The notes under the pieces were generated by a model. The model was not told the origin of the DNA. It worked only from the letters and a program-made list of their open reading frames with translations, and did not search any database. Below, in pieces: positions 1-6,200 of a stretch of DNA of 6,558 nucleotides (the first letter of the stretch is position 1; each line of letters starts with the position of its first letter). A program made the position numbers and the translations under genes. Location: assembly GCA_947588915.1 (NCBI GenBank), contig CANPZA010000083.1:1-6558 (forward strand), given 5' to 3'. This DNA comes from an uncultured Clostridia bacterium (GTDB taxonomy: Bacteria; Bacillota_A; Clostridia; TANB77; CAG-508).

Positions 1-22
1 AGTGTGAAAAATTGACATTTTA

Positions 23-77
23 GGTCTTAGGAACCAGTGCCAACGGCGTGGGGGTTCGAGTCCCTTCATCCGCACCA
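23..77 (+). other. Attachment-site core: 3' part of tRNA-Leu(UAG), no 5' half
   Basis: The segment carries the 3' part of a tRNA-Leu. It has the anticodon TAG at 28-30, a long class-II variable arm (TGCC/GGCG, 38-48), a T arm with loop TTCGAGT at 55-61 and stem 50-54/62-66, the acceptor 3' strand 67-73, a discriminator A and an encoded CCA at 75-77. Upstream of base 23 the anticodon stem no longer pairs (A22 faces A36, T21 faces G37) and no D arm is recognisable. This is therefore not an intact tRNA. It is most likely the tRNA-identity core through which a phage integrates, restoring the host gene's 3' end. The neighbouring integrase supports this. The partner att site is outside the window. 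Confidence 0.75.
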
Positions 78-84
78 CAGTAAG

Positions 85-115
85 AAAAAAAGGGACTTTT
101 GTAAGTCTCTTTTTT
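85..115. terminator. Bidirectional intrinsic terminator after the tRNA fragment and after int
   Basis: A hairpin has 9-bp arms at 90-98 and 103-111 (one G-U pair) around the loop TTGT. On the plus strand it runs into a T-tract (110-115). On the minus strand it runs into seven Ts (complement of 85-91). It can end tRNA-side transcription going right and integrase transcription going left. Confidence 0.75.
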
Positions 116-134
116 ATGCTATTTTTGATAAAAT

Positions 135-160: not shown

Positions 161-1282
161 TTAGTTTATTTTTTTCATTTGTTCTTCCATAAATTCTAAA
201 GAAACAGAAGTATATATGTTGTCAGTTACAGTACTTCCTTCAACATGACCTACCATTGATTGAATAACTACCAATGGGATACCTTTTTCTTGGCATCTTG
301 TAATAAACGTATGTCGTAATTTATGTGTTGTTAAATCTTCTGTAATGTTTAAACTATCAAGAAAATTATTTATTCTTCTTGGTAAAATTAAAGAATTTTG
401 ATTGTAATCCCAAAATAATAAATTATTAATATTAGTAATCTTTTGATGTAAAATATCAGTAATGATTTTTTTAGTTGTAGGAGTCATTGGAAAAGTACGT
501 TTGCCTTTATCTATACCAGTTTTTCGATTATATGTTTTAGTATGTTCTCCTAAAAAATATATTCCTTTTTTTCTTGTTAATGTTCTATACACAGTTATTG
601 TATTTTTTTCTAAATCTATACAATCTTTTGACAATGCTAAAATTTCACTTATTCTCATTCCAGTATTTAATTGTAAGAATACGATATTTTTATATTGTTC
701 TTTATTTGATACATTATTCAAACATTCAATAAGTTTCGCTTCTTCTTCTGTTGTTAAAGCATTAATTTCTTTATTTTTTTTACTAGAAATGGGTTTTGTC
801 AATGTTTCATCATTCATTGGATTAAATACTATCTTTCTTCGAGATATAGCAATATAAAATGTTTTATATAACAATAGCCAAATTTTTTTAATTGAACTAT
901 TGGAATAATTTCTAATTTTATCTTTTGCCAATTCAATATCATCAACTGTTATTTTCTGTATAGGCTTATTGATAAAATTATTACAAGTTCTTTTTATTTG
1001 TTCAATTGTTTTTAAATCTCTATCATAGGATGAATCTCCAATTAAATTATCTTTATATTTTTGTTCAATATGTCTTTCTAATATTTCAATAAAAGTATCC
1101 TTGTTTTTTTCAATATAAGTGCCATTATCTAATTTCTCTTTTGTTGCTGTAACTCTCTTTCTGAAAGCTCTTTCACTTTCATTTTTCTTTTGTCTAAGTG
1201 TTTGTCTTTTACCAGAAGGCTCTGTATATTGGAATATCCATCTTTGTAGAGATTCTGAAAAGTATAAGCTTCCGCTCTCCAT
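161..1282 (-). CDS. int: Phage integrase, tyrosine recombinase family
   Basis: This is a site-specific recombinase for integration and excision at the tRNA-Leu site. Residues about 1-55 resemble an AP2-like arm-binding domain (GSLYFSESLQRW, EPSGKRQTL). Residues about 60-165 are a SAM-like core-binding domain. The catalytic domain follows, with Arg210 (NTGMRISEIL), a Lys around 254-261 (RKTGIDKGKR), His320/Arg323 (HKLRH), His346 (VGH) and nucleophile Tyr357. All expected catalytic residues are visible. The ATG at 1282 has only a weak upstream AAAGG. An upstream ATG at 1328 with a good GGAG opens a different frame, ending in NGE just where family members commonly have NGEGS. Removing base 1274 would join the frames into a protein of about 388 residues, so the N-terminus may be frameshifted. 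It transcribes leftward toward the att core. Confidence 0.93.
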   Translation of the reverse strand: MESGSLYFSESLQRWIFQYTEPSGKRQTLRQKKNESERAFRKRVTATKEKLDNGTYIEKNKDTFIEILERHIEQKYKDNLIGDSSYDRDLKTIEQIKRTCNNFINKPIQKITVDDIELAKDKIRNYSNSSIKKIWLLLYKTFYIAISRRKIVFNPMNDETLTKPISSKKNKEINALTTEEEAKLIECLNNVSNKEQYKNIVFLQLNTGMRISEILALSKDCIDLEKNTITVYRTLTRKKGIYFLGEHTKTYNRKTGIDKGKRTFPMTPTTKKIITDILHQKITNINNLLFWDYNQNSLILPRRINNFLDSLNITEDLTTHKLRHTFITRCQEKGIPLVVIQSMVGHVEGSTVTDNIYTSVSLEFMEEQMKKIN

Positions 1283-1328: not shown

Positions 1329-1340
1329 AATAAAAACTCC
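1329..1340 (-). promoter_or_regulatory. Strong RBS for an upstream integrase start at 1328
   Basis: On the minus strand GGAG (1340-1337) lies 8 bases before an ATG at 1328-1326. That ATG encodes an MEEKKQ-type basic leader that runs into the integrase in another frame. The spacing is better than for the in-frame ATG at 1282. This suggests that translation originally began here, before an indel near 1274. Confidence 0.5.
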
Positions 1341-1362
1341 TTTTCTACTTACGAAAAAGAGC

Positions 1363-1391
1363 TTGCATTTTATACACAAATATTGTATAAT
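1363..1391 (+). promoter_or_regulatory. Candidate sigma-A promoter for the small RNA
   Basis: TTGCAT (1363-1368) and TATAAT (1386-1391) are separated by 17 bases. The -10 is perfect and the -35 keeps only the TTG. The start would be near 1397-1399, about 75 bases before the end of the T-tract of a terminator on the same strand. No protein-coding gene lies between. Confidence 0.45.
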
Positions 1392-1397
1392 TAAAAT

Positions 1398-1472
1398 ACA
1401 AAGTCTTTTCATAAGATTTTGTTTGACTTATGATAGTGTGTTTGTTTGTGAGATGGCACACTATCTTTTTTT
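1398..1472 (+). ncRNA. Candidate trans-acting antisense small RNA
   Basis: A stretch of about 75 bases has a promoter-like element directly upstream and a strong terminator at its 3' end, with no plausible protein. It can fold a 5' hairpin (1409-1415 with 1427-1433, 7 bp, U-rich 11-base loop 1416-1426) followed by the terminator hairpin, which competes for bases 1432-1433. Bases 1404-1429 are complementary to 2982-3007, which spans the 5' leader and Shine-Dalgarno of the zinc-ribbon gene: 24 Watson-Crick pairs, one G-U, one mismatch. It also lies antisense to any repressor-operon transcript reading through into int. An AAGTCTT half-site like those at the early operators lies at 1401-1407. Existence and function are inferred; a shared protein-binding site is the main alternative. 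Confidence 0.5.
1432..1472 (+). terminator. Intrinsic terminator of the small RNA
   Basis: A perfect 9-bp stem, GATAGTGTG (1432-1440) with CACACTATC (1457-1465), is followed by seven Ts (1466-1472) on the plus strand. On the minus strand the hairpin is followed by ATAAG and not a T-tract. It is therefore directional and would not stop the leftward immunity operon. Confidence 0.8.
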
Positions 1473-2941: not shown

Positions 2942-2969
2942 TTAACAAAATACAATTAGATTATACAAT
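2942..2969 (+). promoter_or_regulatory. Possible internal promoter before the zinc-ribbon gene
   Basis: TTAACA (2942-2947) and TACAAT (2964-2969) are 16 bases apart, each 5 of 6 to consensus. A start near 2976 would place the small-RNA-complementary segment 2982-3007 at the very 5' end of the transcript. AT-rich DNA gives many such matches by chance. Confidence 0.35.
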
Positions 2970-2981
2970 AATACAAAAATA

Positions 2982-3007
2982 AAGTCAAACAAATTCTTAT
3001 GAAAGGA
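2982..3007 (+). promoter_or_regulatory. Leader/RBS segment complementary to the candidate small RNA
   Basis: These 26 bases match the reverse complement of 1404-1429 at 24 positions. Of the other two, one still pairs as G-U in RNA (3005 with 1406) and one is a mismatch (2994 with 1417). Similarity stops sharply on both sides. The segment ends in the Shine-Dalgarno AAAGG (3002-3006) of the gene at 3018, so pairing would hide the ribosome binding site. Confidence 0.6.
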
Positions 3008-3017
3008 AATATGAGAT

Positions 3018-3233
3018 ATGGATTATTTAGATTTAGAAGCAGAAAGATTGAAATTCGACCCACAAGAAGCACATATTTGTTTAAAATGTGATAGATGTAA
3101 TACTGAAATTTATGAAAATCAAGAATATTATCTTTACGAAAGAGATTGTCTTTGTGAACAATGTTTTGATGAAATTCAAGCAGATGAAAAAAAAGAATGT
3201 GAACGAATTGCAGGGGAAGATAATGGAGATTAA
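3018..3233 (+). CDS. Small zinc-ribbon-like protein
   Basis: A 71-residue acidic protein. Two Cys pairs, CDRC (24-27) and CEQC (46-49), with extra Cys21 and Cys44, are spaced as in a zinc ribbon or treble-clef finger: CxxC, about 18 residues, CxxC. The centre (IYENQEYYLYERDCLCEQCFDEI) resembles LIM/zinc-ribbon domains of small phage early proteins; the partner is unknown. The start is ATG 3018. AAAGG lies at 3002-3006, a long 11-base spacing; another ATG at 3011 is in a different frame and dies early. The leader/RBS is the predicted target of the small RNA at 1398-1472. It overlaps the next gene by 11 bases. Confidence 0.75.
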   Translation: MDYLDLEAERLKFDPQEAHICLKCDRCNTEIYENQEYYLYERDCLCEQCFDEIQADEKKECERIAGEDNGD

Positions 3234-3393
3234 AGAAATGTCAAATGAACAACTTGTAAGATATTACATTTGCACAAAAAGAGAATTAAAAACAATACAA
3301 AGTACAATAAAACAATATGAAGATGAACTAAACAAAAGATTTGATACTGGTACTTTAGTAGAAAGAAAGGAAGAGGAAAATGGAGAAAATTGA
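3223..3393 (+). CDS. Hypothetical small helical protein
   Basis: A 56-residue, mostly helical, highly charged protein (MEIKEMSNEQLVRYY..., ending EENGEN) that I do not recognise. The open frame extends upstream to 3088, but that part lies inside the zinc-ribbon gene. ATG 3223 has AGGGG (3212-3216) 6 bases upstream and is the credible start. It overlaps the zinc-ribbon gene by 11 bases and the next gene by 14, so all three are likely translationally coupled and any repression of 3018 could affect it. Confidence 0.65.
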   Translation: MEIKEMSNEQLVRYYICTKRELKTIQSTIKQYEDELNKRFDTGTLVERKEEENGEN

Positions 3394-3934
3394 TTTAGAA
3401 AAATTAAGACAAGTTCCTTTATACGACTTTAATCCTTTTAAAACAGAGGAAGAAAAATTAAGAGAGAAAGTATATTTTCTTGAATTAGAAGTAGATAAAT
3501 TAAAAGAGAAACAAGTCAAACTTCCAGAACGATACATAATTAACGAAAATGCTTGCATCTTATTTTGGCAAAATGGAGAAAAGACAGTTGTAAAAAGATG
3601 TGCTTATGATGCATTTAATCCAAGATTAGCATTTCTAACAGCCTTTTTTCAACATTATGTGGATATGAGTAAAAATAAAGCTAACAAGTATTTAGCAAGT
3701 TTACAAGTAGAAAAAGAACCAAAACAAAAACCTAAACATATGAAAGAAGAAGCAAAGCCTGAAATTGGAAATAGAGTTGAAATAATAAAAGAAGATTTTT
3801 GTTCAAAAAAAGGTTGGAAAGGCAAAATTACTAAAATAGATACTGCTAATAATGTATTTCAAGTAAATTATGATAATGGAGAAAAATGGTGGGTAAGCAA
3901 AGAACAAACAAAATTAATCAAGGAGGAAAAATAG
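3380..3934 (+). CDS. Phage protein with coiled coil and C-terminal KOW/SH3-like domain
   Basis: A 184-residue protein with three parts. Residues about 20-48 form a leucine/lysine coiled coil (EEEKLREKVYFLELEVDKL). Residues 52-108 are a module I recognise from low-GC phage early proteins (INENACILFWQNGEKTVVKR, then AFLTAFFQHYV and MSKNKANKYL). After a basic linker (112-125), residues about 128-181 look like a small beta-barrel of the KOW/SH3 kind (GNRVEII, GWKGKITKID, FQVNYDNGEKWWV). Function unknown; KOW-like folds bind nucleic acid or protein. ATG 3380 lies inside the end of the preceding gene with a purine-rich GGAAGAGG RBS. It ends immediately before the ERF gene with no gap. Confidence 0.75.
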   Translation: MEKIDLEKLRQVPLYDFNPFKTEEEKLREKVYFLELEVDKLKEKQVKLPERYIINENACILFWQNGEKTVVKRCAYDAFNPRLAFLTAFFQHYVDMSKNKANKYLASLQVEKEPKQKPKHMKEEAKPEIGNRVEIIKEDFCSKKGWKGKITKIDTANNVFQVNYDNGEKWWVSKEQTKLIKEEK

Positions 3935-4576
3935 ATGAATATATATGAAAAATTATTAAATATACAAAGTGAATTAAAAGCTCCAAAAAATCAACACAAT
4001 AATTTTGGTAATTATGATTATAGAAGTTGTGAAGATATATTAGAGGCAGTAAAACCTTTATGCAAAGAAAATAAGGTTGTATTAAACATATCAGATGAAA
4101 TAGTAATGATAGGACAAAGATACTATGTAAAAGCAACTGCAACATTGGTAGATTTAGAAAATACAAAAGATAATGGTATTCCAGCAATAGAAAATGTTGC
4201 TTATGCTAGAGAAGAAGAACAAAAGAAGGGAATGGATTTATCACAGGTAACAGGTGCAACAAGTTCTTATGCAAGAAAATATGCATTAAATGGATTGTTC
4301 TGTATAGATGATACAAAAGATGCTGATACAGATGCTTTCAAAAAGCAACAAGATAAAGGAAATAATAAATTACAAAATACATATCAAAAGCCAGTACAAC
4401 AAGCACCAAAACTAATATCAGATGCACAACGCAAAAGATTATATGCAATAGCAAACGGAAATAATGAAGTAGCAAAAAGAGTATTAGCAAGATATGGCTA
4501 TGAAAGTTCAGAACAAATAAAAGTAAGTGATTATGAAAAAATCTGCAATGATATAGAAGCAGAAATAAATATGTAA
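3935..4576 (+). CDS. erf: ERF-family single-strand annealing recombinase
   Basis: A 213-residue protein of the ERF superfamily (P22 Essential Recombination Function). Such proteins anneal complementary single strands and support phage recombination and circularization. Diagnostic segments are an N-terminal FGNYDYRSCEDILEAVKP (24-41), a central beta region (VVLNISDEI, YYVKATATLVD, 48-73), and GMDLSQVTGATSSYARKYAL (99-118) followed by DDTKDAD (125-131). A Gln/Lys-rich linker (137-157) joins a small C-terminal helical module (ISDAQRKRLYAIA, 161-173). The RBS AGGAGG (3921-3926) lies inside the previous gene's end. The SSB-like protein 400 bases downstream is a typical functional partner. No exonuclease gene is seen in the window. 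Confidence 0.92.
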   Translation: MNIYEKLLNIQSELKAPKNQHNNFGNYDYRSCEDILEAVKPLCKENKVVLNISDEIVMIGQRYYVKATATLVDLENTKDNGIPAIENVAYAREEEQKKGMDLSQVTGATSSYARKYALNGLFCIDDTKDADTDAFKKQQDKGNNKLQNTYQKPVQQAPKLISDAQRKRLYAIANGNNEVAKRVLARYGYESSEQIKVSDYEKICNDIEAEINM

Positions 4577-5519: not shown

Positions 5520-6200
5520 ATGGCTATTATAAGAAACAGAAACAAAGAAAAATACACAGTTGTAGATAGTGCAATATTTAAAAATAAAAATTTATCCTTA
5601 AAAGCAAGGGGAATGTTACTAACATTATTAAGTTTGCCAGATGACTGGGAATTTAGTGAAAATGGATTAGAATCATTATTTTGTGATGGAATTACAGCCA
5701 TAAAAACAGCACTAAAAGAATTGGAAAACGAAGGATATTTAATTAGAGAAAAATACAAAAATGAAAAAGGGCAATTTAGTACATATTGGACTATATTAGA
5801 AAATCCGCAACAGAAAATCCGCGATGGAAATTCCGCAACGGAAAATGATACCCAATCTAATACTAAAATAAAATACTTAAATAATAATATATGTCCATCA
5901 AAAGATGAACAAGATAATCCACCTTTGAAGGAAACAGAATTAGCAGATAACTTTGATAAGATATGGAAACTGTATCCTAGAAAAGATGGTAAAAATACAG
6001 CATATAGGCATTATAAGGCTTGGCTTGAAGGAAGAATGTATGCAGGAAGAAAAGTAAAACTCGATAATAAGCAAATGTGGTATGCAACAAAGAGATATGC
6101 TGATTTAGTGGAAAAAGAAAAAATAGACAAGCAGTATATCAAAATGGGAAGTACATTTTTCAATGAAGCTATTATGGAGTTTGTGGAGGAGGAAAAATAA
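5520..6200 (+). CDS. Phage replisome organizer / replication initiation protein
   Basis: A 226-residue protein. The N-terminal winged-helix domain (about 10-92: LSLKARGMLLTLLSLPDDWEFS, then AIKTALKELENEGYLIRE, FSTYWTIL) is typical of phage replication initiators in Firmicutes, which bind origin repeats and recruit helicase loader and helicase. A variable hydrophilic linker (93-140) follows. The C-terminal module (FDKIWKLYPRKDGKNTAYRHYKAWL, 145-169; GSTFFNEAIMEF, 210-221) is common in these proteins. The linker DNA holds three 14-bp iterons. ATG 5520 has AGGAGG (5509-5514) 5 bases upstream. The gene follows the structured segment 5391-5503 and overlaps the next gene by one base. Confidence 0.87.
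   Translation: MAIIRNRNKEKYTVVDSAIFKNKNLSLKARGMLLTLLSLPDDWEFSENGLESLFCDGITAIKTALKELENEGYLIREKYKNEKGQFSTYWTILENPQQKIRDGNSATENDTQSNTKIKYLNNNICPSKDEQDNPPLKETELADNFDKIWKLYPRKDGKNTAYRHYKAWLEGRMYAGRKVKLDNKQMWYATKRYADLVEKEKIDKQYIKMGSTFFNEAIMEFVEEEK
5799..5846. repeat. 14-bp iterons: probable phage replication origin
   Basis: Three head-to-tail 14-base units occur: GAAAATCCGCAACA (5799-5812), GAAAATCCGCGATG (5813-5826) and GAAATTCCGCAACG (5827-5840). A partial fourth, GAAAAT (5841-5846), follows. The period of 14 is not a multiple of 3, so the protein does not repeat and conservation acts on DNA. The third unit contains TTCCG-CAA-CGGAA, an inverted repeat. Lying in the linker of the initiator gene, this matches the lambda O layout and suggests self-encoded initiator sites. 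Confidence 0.65.
5851..5892. other. AT-rich stretch beside the iterons, possible unwinding element
   Basis: Directly after the iterons comes a run of almost only A and T (TAATACTAAAATAAAATA, then TTAAATAATAATATAT), coding for a low-complexity KIKYLNNN linker. An AT-rich region beside initiator repeats is the usual place of strand opening. The genome is AT-rich overall, so this alone is weak evidence. Confidence 0.35.

Follow-up and report, generated by a model that had tools for sequence, protein, structure and literature searches.

A candidate trans-encoded antisense RNA beside the integrase gene of clostridial prophages, complementary to the leader of an early zinc-ribbon gene

The c4 RNA of phages P1 and P7 arises by processing of the leader whose operon it regulates, and the sar RNA of phage P22 comes from the complementary strand of the very DNA that encodes its target. 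A handful of phages, those with c4 and sar among them, are known to make antisense RNAs that act on a ribosome-binding site (RBS), according to the sections of a review that deal with these RNAs (PMC12197685). There, c4 is described as a 77-nt RNA, complementary to the RBS region of ant and part of phage immunity, whose complementary parts are said to lie in RNA loops; sar, labelled trans in the review's table, is described as an RNA of 68-69 nt, which pairs to block translation initiation of the early gene ant; OOP of lambda is a 77-nt antisense RNA, cis-encoded opposite cII, of the lysis-lysogeny decision (PMC12197685). In four prophages of Streptococcus pyogenes, RNA-seq revealed small RNAs upstream of the integrase gene (SP119_SR034, SR071, SR086 and SR106); in the sections devoted to them they are called antisense and thought to silence the integrase, and no pairing with an early-gene RBS is described (PMC6431027).

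The DNA analysed here, referred to as the window, is a stretch of 6,558 nt from an uncultured Clostridia bacterium. Unlike c4, which is released from a leader, its candidate small RNA has a promoter-like site and a terminator of its own, about 1.6 kb from the target with genes between; it also adjoins the integrase gene, and its target is not a known antirepressor. Whereas sar and its target share the same DNA, the two sites in the window (1404-1429 and 2982-3007) are separate. With OOP it would share the nature of a short phage antisense RNA, differing in being encoded in trans. It has a weak covariance match to the pT181 ctRNA (Rfam RF00242; 1387-1480, 21.2 bits, E 1, with a gathering score of 56), but, unlike plasmid copy-number RNAs of that kind, no plasmid replication gene as its partner. 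In kind it would resemble c4, likewise short and, as far as the review presents it, with complementarity to the RBS region of a gene on the lytic side of its own phage (PMC12197685). With the S. pyogenes RNAs, compared by position only and as presented in those sections, it shares a place upstream of the integrase in a prophage of a Firmicute (PMC6431027). No description of this RNA family was found in the literature searched, subscription papers being mostly outside its reach; what appears to be new is the combination of an integrase-side location, separate transcription and targets differing between elements.

The small RNA unit, its surroundings and its distribution

The window looks like one end of an integrative element, a prophage or something similar. 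The features around the small RNA are the following.

1-78, 3' half of a tRNA-like sequence, within 1-120, followed by a terminator-like hairpin
161..1282, minus strand, tyrosine integrase gene (PF00589, E 1.4e-22), divergent from the small RNA
1334..1364, minus strand, integrase leader hairpin enclosing the integrase Shine-Dalgarno, by folding; likewise in L002, L008 and L012-L016
1363..1391, plus strand, promoter-like site of the small RNA, TTGCAT-17-TATAAT (-35 at 1363-1368, -10 at 1386-1391)
1398..1472, plus strand, small RNA unit, ~75 nt (covariance model R1, 34 loci aligned)
1399..1421, plus strand, 5' hairpin SL1, arms 1399-1407 / 1413-1421, loop UUCAU, in the minimum-energy fold
1404..1429, plus strand, antisense segment (most of SL1 and the linker), 26 positions complementary to 2982-3007
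1432..1472, plus strand, Rho-independent terminator with a large loop containing UUUGUGAGA and a U run; 10/10 pairs changed on both sides in 34 loci

From left to right, the leftward integrase gene is followed by the small RNA unit, a leftward M78-peptidase gene, a leftward gene for a Cro/C1-type repressor, and then a rightward early operon, encoding a small HTH-like protein, the zinc-ribbon protein, an ERF annealing protein and a replication protein. The region 1-120 is probably the attachment-site end of the element, ARAGORN calling no tRNA at 1-78. Comparison with known phages and plasmids yielded no match to the window.

Three further observations concern this layout. A perfect 18-bp palindrome, AAGACTTTTAAAAGTCTT, adjoins the repressor and early promoters at 2382-2399, and is likely a repressor operator. 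Three 14-bp tandem units (AGAAAATCCGCAAC and variants) lie at 5798-5839, within the replication-protein gene; tandem repeats of such kind can be origin iterons. On the minus strand, the long integrase frame begins at 1282, while at 1328 a different frame begins, at a start preceded by a good Shine-Dalgarno; in L002, L012, L013, L014 and L015 this region is a single uninterrupted frame. The frame may be broken here, the true start may lie later, or the sequencing may be at fault.

The first relative, the IMG/VR contig L002 (integrase 68%, M78 peptidase 75% and zinc ribbon 52% identical), has the unit at the same place as the window, with a paired part very different in letters; near its end lies a sequence similar to window 1-120, in reverse orientation. 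Searching with the zinc-ribbon protein (27 hits, 25 of which were used as protein set A5, P0004 and P0026 being left out) led to the viral contigs L007 and L008 and to five Clostridia MAG contigs, L012-L016, and a genome search added L059, L060 and L061. The window, L002, L008 and L012-L016 are referred to as core loci (n=8); together with L059 and L060 they make 10 elements holding both the unit and an intact zinc-ribbon gene. L007 contains the gene, and no unit was found on this contig, which ends beyond the repressor, without the integrase. In L061 the unit is accompanied by a zinc-ribbon relic with stops, at which no complement was found.

The promoter-like site TTGCAT-17-TATAAT and the strong terminator at 1432-1472, both proposed in the preliminary description, were confirmed by reading the sequence, and TTGCAT or TTGCAA, a 17-nt spacer and TATAAT precede the unit in all eight core loci. 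An automatic signal scan omitted both signals, because it accepts a -35 only under a 4-of-6 rule and a loop only up to 8 nt. R1 matches the window at 1388-1470 with 96.8 bits, the window being one of the eight sequences behind the model. Rfam gave no match in the window, and the 16 hits obtained with a stretch of 181 bases were all below the gathering cut-off.

RNAalifold and the covariance model give a 5' hairpin (SL1), a linker and the terminator. In the 34-locus alignment, which was fitted to the structure, 95.9% of the cells of SL1 and terminator are paired, and 19/19 pairs, including the 9/9 of SL1, show changes on both sides; this level was reached by 0/500 shuffles, and slid controls pair in 32-53%. 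An unfitted alignment of eight sequences has 92.0% of the cells paired. The SL1 cells of the fitted alignment include 38 G-U and 3 A-C combinations. Wobble is tolerated in RNA, and a DNA palindrome would have no reason to prefer G-U; since G-U is far commoner than A-C, SL1 is better read as an RNA hairpin than as a DNA palindrome. The 7-bp hairpin with a U-rich loop that had been described before (1409-1415 / 1427-1433) is possible, pairing in 37/42 cells of eight sequences, with 14 further cells being gaps. It was rejected as the main fold, since both the minimum-energy fold and the conservation over 34 loci point to SL1, and it may be an alternative fold competing with SL1. A separate observation concerns the loop motif UUUGYGAGAC / UUUGGCGAC, whose reverse complement is found in the terminator loops of L076, L079 and L081, unlike most other loci; in L076 and L081 this motif belongs to the 16-nt complement of a target leader described below.

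Within the host family, 40 of the 292 genomes searched have a match to R1 at E<=0.1 and 25 at E<=0.001; within the class, R1 matches 1/391 genomes at E<=0.001, which is the query genome itself. Both samples are even draws under strict filters, and the counts are lower bounds; the family search missed the genomes of L059 and L060. Of its 42 match rows, 28 were fetched and 3 were already in the set, the weaker rest being left out; L061 came from a separate search. The 38 loci studied are thus the 28 from the R1 genome matches, the eight core loci, L059 and L060. L087 and L088, weak hits without the layout, were left out of the 34-locus alignment and of the scoring with 34 RNAs; L089 and L109 were left out altogether, and the short copies L017-L058 and L090 are used only where named. 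A recombinase lies within 450 nt of the unit in 29/38 loci, tyrosine in type, or serine in L069 and L071; in L073 only the N-terminal integrase domain was matched. No unit was detected in L003-L005, L010, L011 or in seven short loci, and exact pattern scans of viral contigs gave no match. As judged from these comparisons of sequence, the candidate small RNAs make up a family with a conserved structure, which occurs in prophages of one clostridial family.

Pairing with early-gene leaders

The target and the genes behind it are listed below.

2982..3007, plus strand, target, leader and Shine-Dalgarno of the zinc-ribbon gene
3018..3233, plus strand, zinc-ribbon (target) gene, 71-aa CxxC..CxxC protein, LIM-like
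3223..3393, plus strand, 56-aa ORF overlapping the zinc-ribbon gene, start set by relatives
3380..3934, plus strand, next early ORF, overlapping the 56-aa ORF
3935..4576, plus strand, ERF-family single-strand annealing protein gene (PF04404, E 1.4e-43)

The zinc-ribbon protein has PDB profile hits to the LIM domains of PINCH1 (best E 2.1e-4). By profile, this phage protein resembles part of a eukaryotic LIM domain; its structure model is of low confidence (pLDDT 70) and gave no Foldseek hit at E<=0.001. The 56-aa ORF, which begins at 3223, before the zinc-ribbon gene ends at 3233, is probably translationally coupled to it; the following ORF, without a Pfam match at E<=0.001, begins at 3380, before 3393, and the ERF gene starts at 3935. 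As these early genes overlap, blocking the first should lower the next.

In the window, 1404-1429 was confirmed to pair with 2982-3007 over 26 positions (24 Watson-Crick, one G-U, one mismatch), as had been reported, and the target ends, as also claimed, in the Shine-Dalgarno, AAAGGA, 10 nt ahead of the ATG at 3018. These segments make up inverted repeat I3, whose 26 nt are 92% complementary; no other of the 25 listed inverted-repeat pairs, out of 168, reaches this level. The duplex of the RNA 5' part with the target has an energy of -35.0 kcal/mol; dinucleotide shuffles average -11.9, and 0/1000 reach it. Among 1050 windows of the locus the target ranks first (z -6.4; surroundings of the small RNA left out), as it does among 18 RBSs, the integrase RBS being left out of the latter ranking. 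The pairing in the window is therefore far beyond chance. Its most constant part in the window clade is the linker, UUUGUUUGACUUA.

The same ranking, in which the RNA 5' part was compared with 60-nt windows on both strands, leaving out the surroundings of the RNA and of the integrase RBS, places the zinc-ribbon RBS first in each of the eight core loci, among 1,050-1,995 windows (z -4.8 to -8.5) and among 17-34 RBSs, narrowly so among the RBSs of L012 (z -3.0 vs -2.9). Dinucleotide shuffles as good as the RNA with its own target were 0/1000 in every core locus. The zinc-ribbon RBS is thus the best partner of the RNA in 8/10 elements with both parts; in the other two, L059 and L060, it is an average partner (best rank 557/1376 and 706/1596). 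The pairing extends over 26 positions in the window and over 32-35 in L008, where it is longest. In L002 it joins CUUUCCAAAGUG in the RNA to CACUUUGGAAAGG in the zinc-ribbon leader, in two helical segments separated by 4 bases of the target that stay unpaired. In L012, L013, L015 and L016, the SL1/loop half has drifted from the target, and the linker still matches.

Each RNA was also paired with the targets of the other loci. Without unfolding costs, the cross table separates three sequence types. The L002 RNA reaches a duplex energy of -39.1 on its own target, and no other target takes it beyond -14.7; for the L008 RNA the corresponding values are -40.4 and -17.9. The RNAs of the window clade pair with every target of their clade and also with that of L002 (-20.4 to -34.6), to which L012 (-25.3 vs -25.1) and L016 (-34.6 vs -30.4) score better than to their own. 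With unfolding costs counted, the table becomes block-diagonal over four sequence types, and the window-clade RNAs reach only -2.9 to -10.3 with the L002 target, against -12.1 to -20.0 with their own. Own pairs in nine loci, including L063 described below, range from -9.7 to -27.9, and 0/200 random windows of the same locus are as good. Scored against all 34 RNAs, the loci rank their own RNA first (L002, L008 and L063), second (window) or fourth to tenth (L012-L016); the targets of L012-L016 are nearly alike.

Joint change of the two segments in relatives, which the preliminary description had proposed as a check, with independent change as a refutation, is thus mostly borne out, by the top partner in 8/10 elements and by the block-diagonal table; it holds for the linker, and only partly for the loop half, which has drifted in four loci. 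Two features of RBS-blocking phage antisense RNAs of the c4 and sar kind, complementarity to an RBS region of the same phage and, for the most part, joint change, are found here.

A further measure, the ungapped match of the whole RNA anywhere in its locus, bears on the reading of the complementarity as chance, or as a functionless leftover of a small duplication. Among 120 shuffles, those scoring as high were 0 in the window, L008, L015, L016 and L081, 1 in L076, 4 in L014, 5 in L013, 7 in L059, 8 in L060, 11 in L012, 41 in L002 and 115 in L063. That A+T-rich sequence yields many weak matches, and that L002 and L063 are not significant by this score, would suit such a reading; the five loci with 0/120, and complementarity kept by widely different sequence types, leave it with hardly any credibility.

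Other elements appear to have other targets. In L063, the gene at the zinc-ribbon place encodes a PD-(D/E)XK exonuclease, and its RBS pairs, more weakly, with a changed SL1 and linker; this case rests on position and duplex energy, the ungapped search giving the 115/120 quoted above. In L076 and L081, it is the 5' arm and loop of the terminator that find a perfect 16-nt complement, which lies in the leader of a phrog_6058 gene, just ahead of its RBS. Once these two loci had shown this second mode, L059 and L060 were recognised as further cases: L060 has a 15-nt perfect complement just upstream of the RBS of a phrog_6058 gene, and L059 one of 14 nt just upstream of the RBS of a small ORF, for which no family match was found at E<=0.001. 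With unfolding counted, random windows as good were 0/200 in L059, L060 and L081 and 3/200 in L076. The phrog_6058 proteins targeted in L060, L076 and L081 may be excisionase-like.

A target was thus found in 13/38 loci (the eight core loci, L063, L076, L081, L059 and L060). In the other 25, none was found within ~6 kb, nor, for 18 of them, in 2.6-19.9 kb of further downstream DNA; two of the 25 (L079 and L088) have less than 150 nt downstream. In the scoring against the 34 RNAs, which covered 25 non-core loci, the own RNA had in these a mean rank of 14.2/34, vs 17.5 by chance. L068, where the own RNA ranks first, and L070, where it ranks second, were rejected as target cases, their duplexes being too weak.

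DNA-level constraints and the integrase leader

The target also carries a signal on the opposite strand.

2960..2988, minus strand, leftward promoter-like site TTGACT-17-TATAAT, 11 of 12 consensus, with its -35 inside the target

A transcript starting at this site would be antisense to the first early genes and would extend into the repressor gene. The establishment promoter of lambda has a similarly leftward, antisense arrangement, and the site is possibly a promoter for repressor establishment. TTGACT/A-17-TATAAT, with the -35 inside the target, is found opposite the target strand in 7/8 core loci and is absent at the L008 target; in L063 a leftward promoter-like site lies beside the target, just outside the pairing. 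At the other pairing site, SL1 shares a likeness within elements with the sequence that precedes the -35 of the RNA, 0/10000 permutations over 36 loci being as good; in the window, 1346-1368 and the reverse complement of 1399-1421 are the segments concerned, which are alike within elements more than between. A common operator, or one regulator, for the divergent promoters of RNA and integrase would fit this resemblance.

Both sets of observations could mean that the complementarity reflects a shared DNA site bound by a protein, involving the leftward promoter at the target and the region upstream of the integrase promoter at 1404-1429. We consider this unlikely. L008 has the longest pairing, yet no promoter at its target; in L063 the pairing lies outside the -35; in L002 two helices form only if 4 bases between them stay unpaired; and the likeness of SL1 to the stretch upstream of the -35 ranks the window only 15/36 and L002 17/36. 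The preliminary description had named conservation of DNA symmetry, rather than of pairing, as a finding that would speak against an antisense RNA; this is disfavoured by the unpaired bases of L002 and by the G-U pairs (38, vs 3 A-C) that SL1 keeps, which also disfavour SL1 as a pure DNA operator. As an operator of the repressor, SL1 was rejected too: by reading only, the palindromes near the repressor promoter (2382-2399 in the window, and in L002) look different from it. DNA-level constraints thus act on both pairing sites. On their own they do not account for the pairing: the promoter is missing in L008 and lies outside the paired part in L063, the duplex of L002 requires unpaired bases, and different leaders are the partners in L059, L060, L076 and L081.

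The integrase leader is another conceivable partner, and the early mRNA leader might then be a sponge, titrating a small RNA that mainly serves a different purpose, such as control of the integrase mRNA. In all eight core loci a hairpin of the integrase leader sequesters its Shine-Dalgarno, folding it against a CUUU-type run like that of SL1; a recombinase lies beside the unit in 29/38 loci, whereas a target is known in only 13/38; and integrase silencing was suggested for the S. pyogenes prophage RNAs in the sections dealing with them (PMC6431027). In the core loci, however, this leader is an ordinary partner, 5 to 148 of 150 random windows being as good. Its duplex energies are -11.5 to -20.4, vs -28.0 to -41.1 for the target, and its net energies -1.3 to -4.9, vs -12.1 to -27.9, so that it was rejected as the partner there. 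In L078, the RNA 5' part pairs unusually well with the other-strand leader upstream of the unit; it is the only one of 36 loci to stand out (0/150 random windows as good), but not when unfolding is counted (net -3.3). A sponge is, on these figures, quite improbable.

Proposed mechanism and meaning

Computation establishes the unit, its conserved structure and a pairing mostly changed together with the target. The reading of the pairing as antisense, put forward in the preliminary description, is supported by these data, and it is highly likely that the unit at 1398-1472 specifies a trans-encoded antisense RNA, which would block translation of an early gene of its own prophage. As far as sequence can tell, the small RNA would very probably be a genetic off-switch for that gene.

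In the mechanism that we propose, transcription of the small RNA would start at a promoter of its own, divergent from the integrase gene, and stop at its own terminator. The U-rich loop of SL1 would read the Shine-Dalgarno in the mRNA of the early gene at 3018, and the single-stranded linker the dozen bases upstream of it. The resulting duplex, of ~26 positions, would cover the RBS and stop translation of the zinc ribbon; via the overlapping frames, the genes behind it, leading into the ERF recombination operon, would also be lowered. In a lysogen, the early operon would be kept silent in this way if the repressor leaks, and a role in keeping lysogeny or in excluding related phages is suggested.

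In a wider sense, and with the arguments for and against about evenly balanced in our view, the prophages of one clostridial family may carry an integrase-linked antisense RNA, with a fixed frame and a rewritten reading part, as a second, RNA-based immunity. The frame would consist of the 5' hairpin, the linker and the terminator, and the reading part would be the linker or the terminator loop, rewritten to fit the early gene of its own element, be it the zinc-ribbon, exonuclease or phrog_6058 gene. A lysogen would then shut down early operons brought in by relatives that share its leader, and leave those of others unaffected. The family is defined by structure and offers natural RNA-target sets, several of which are expected to exclude one another, so that specificity and retargeting become directly testable in laboratory hosts. 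It would also offer a first handle on the conserved early LIM-like zinc-ribbon gene.
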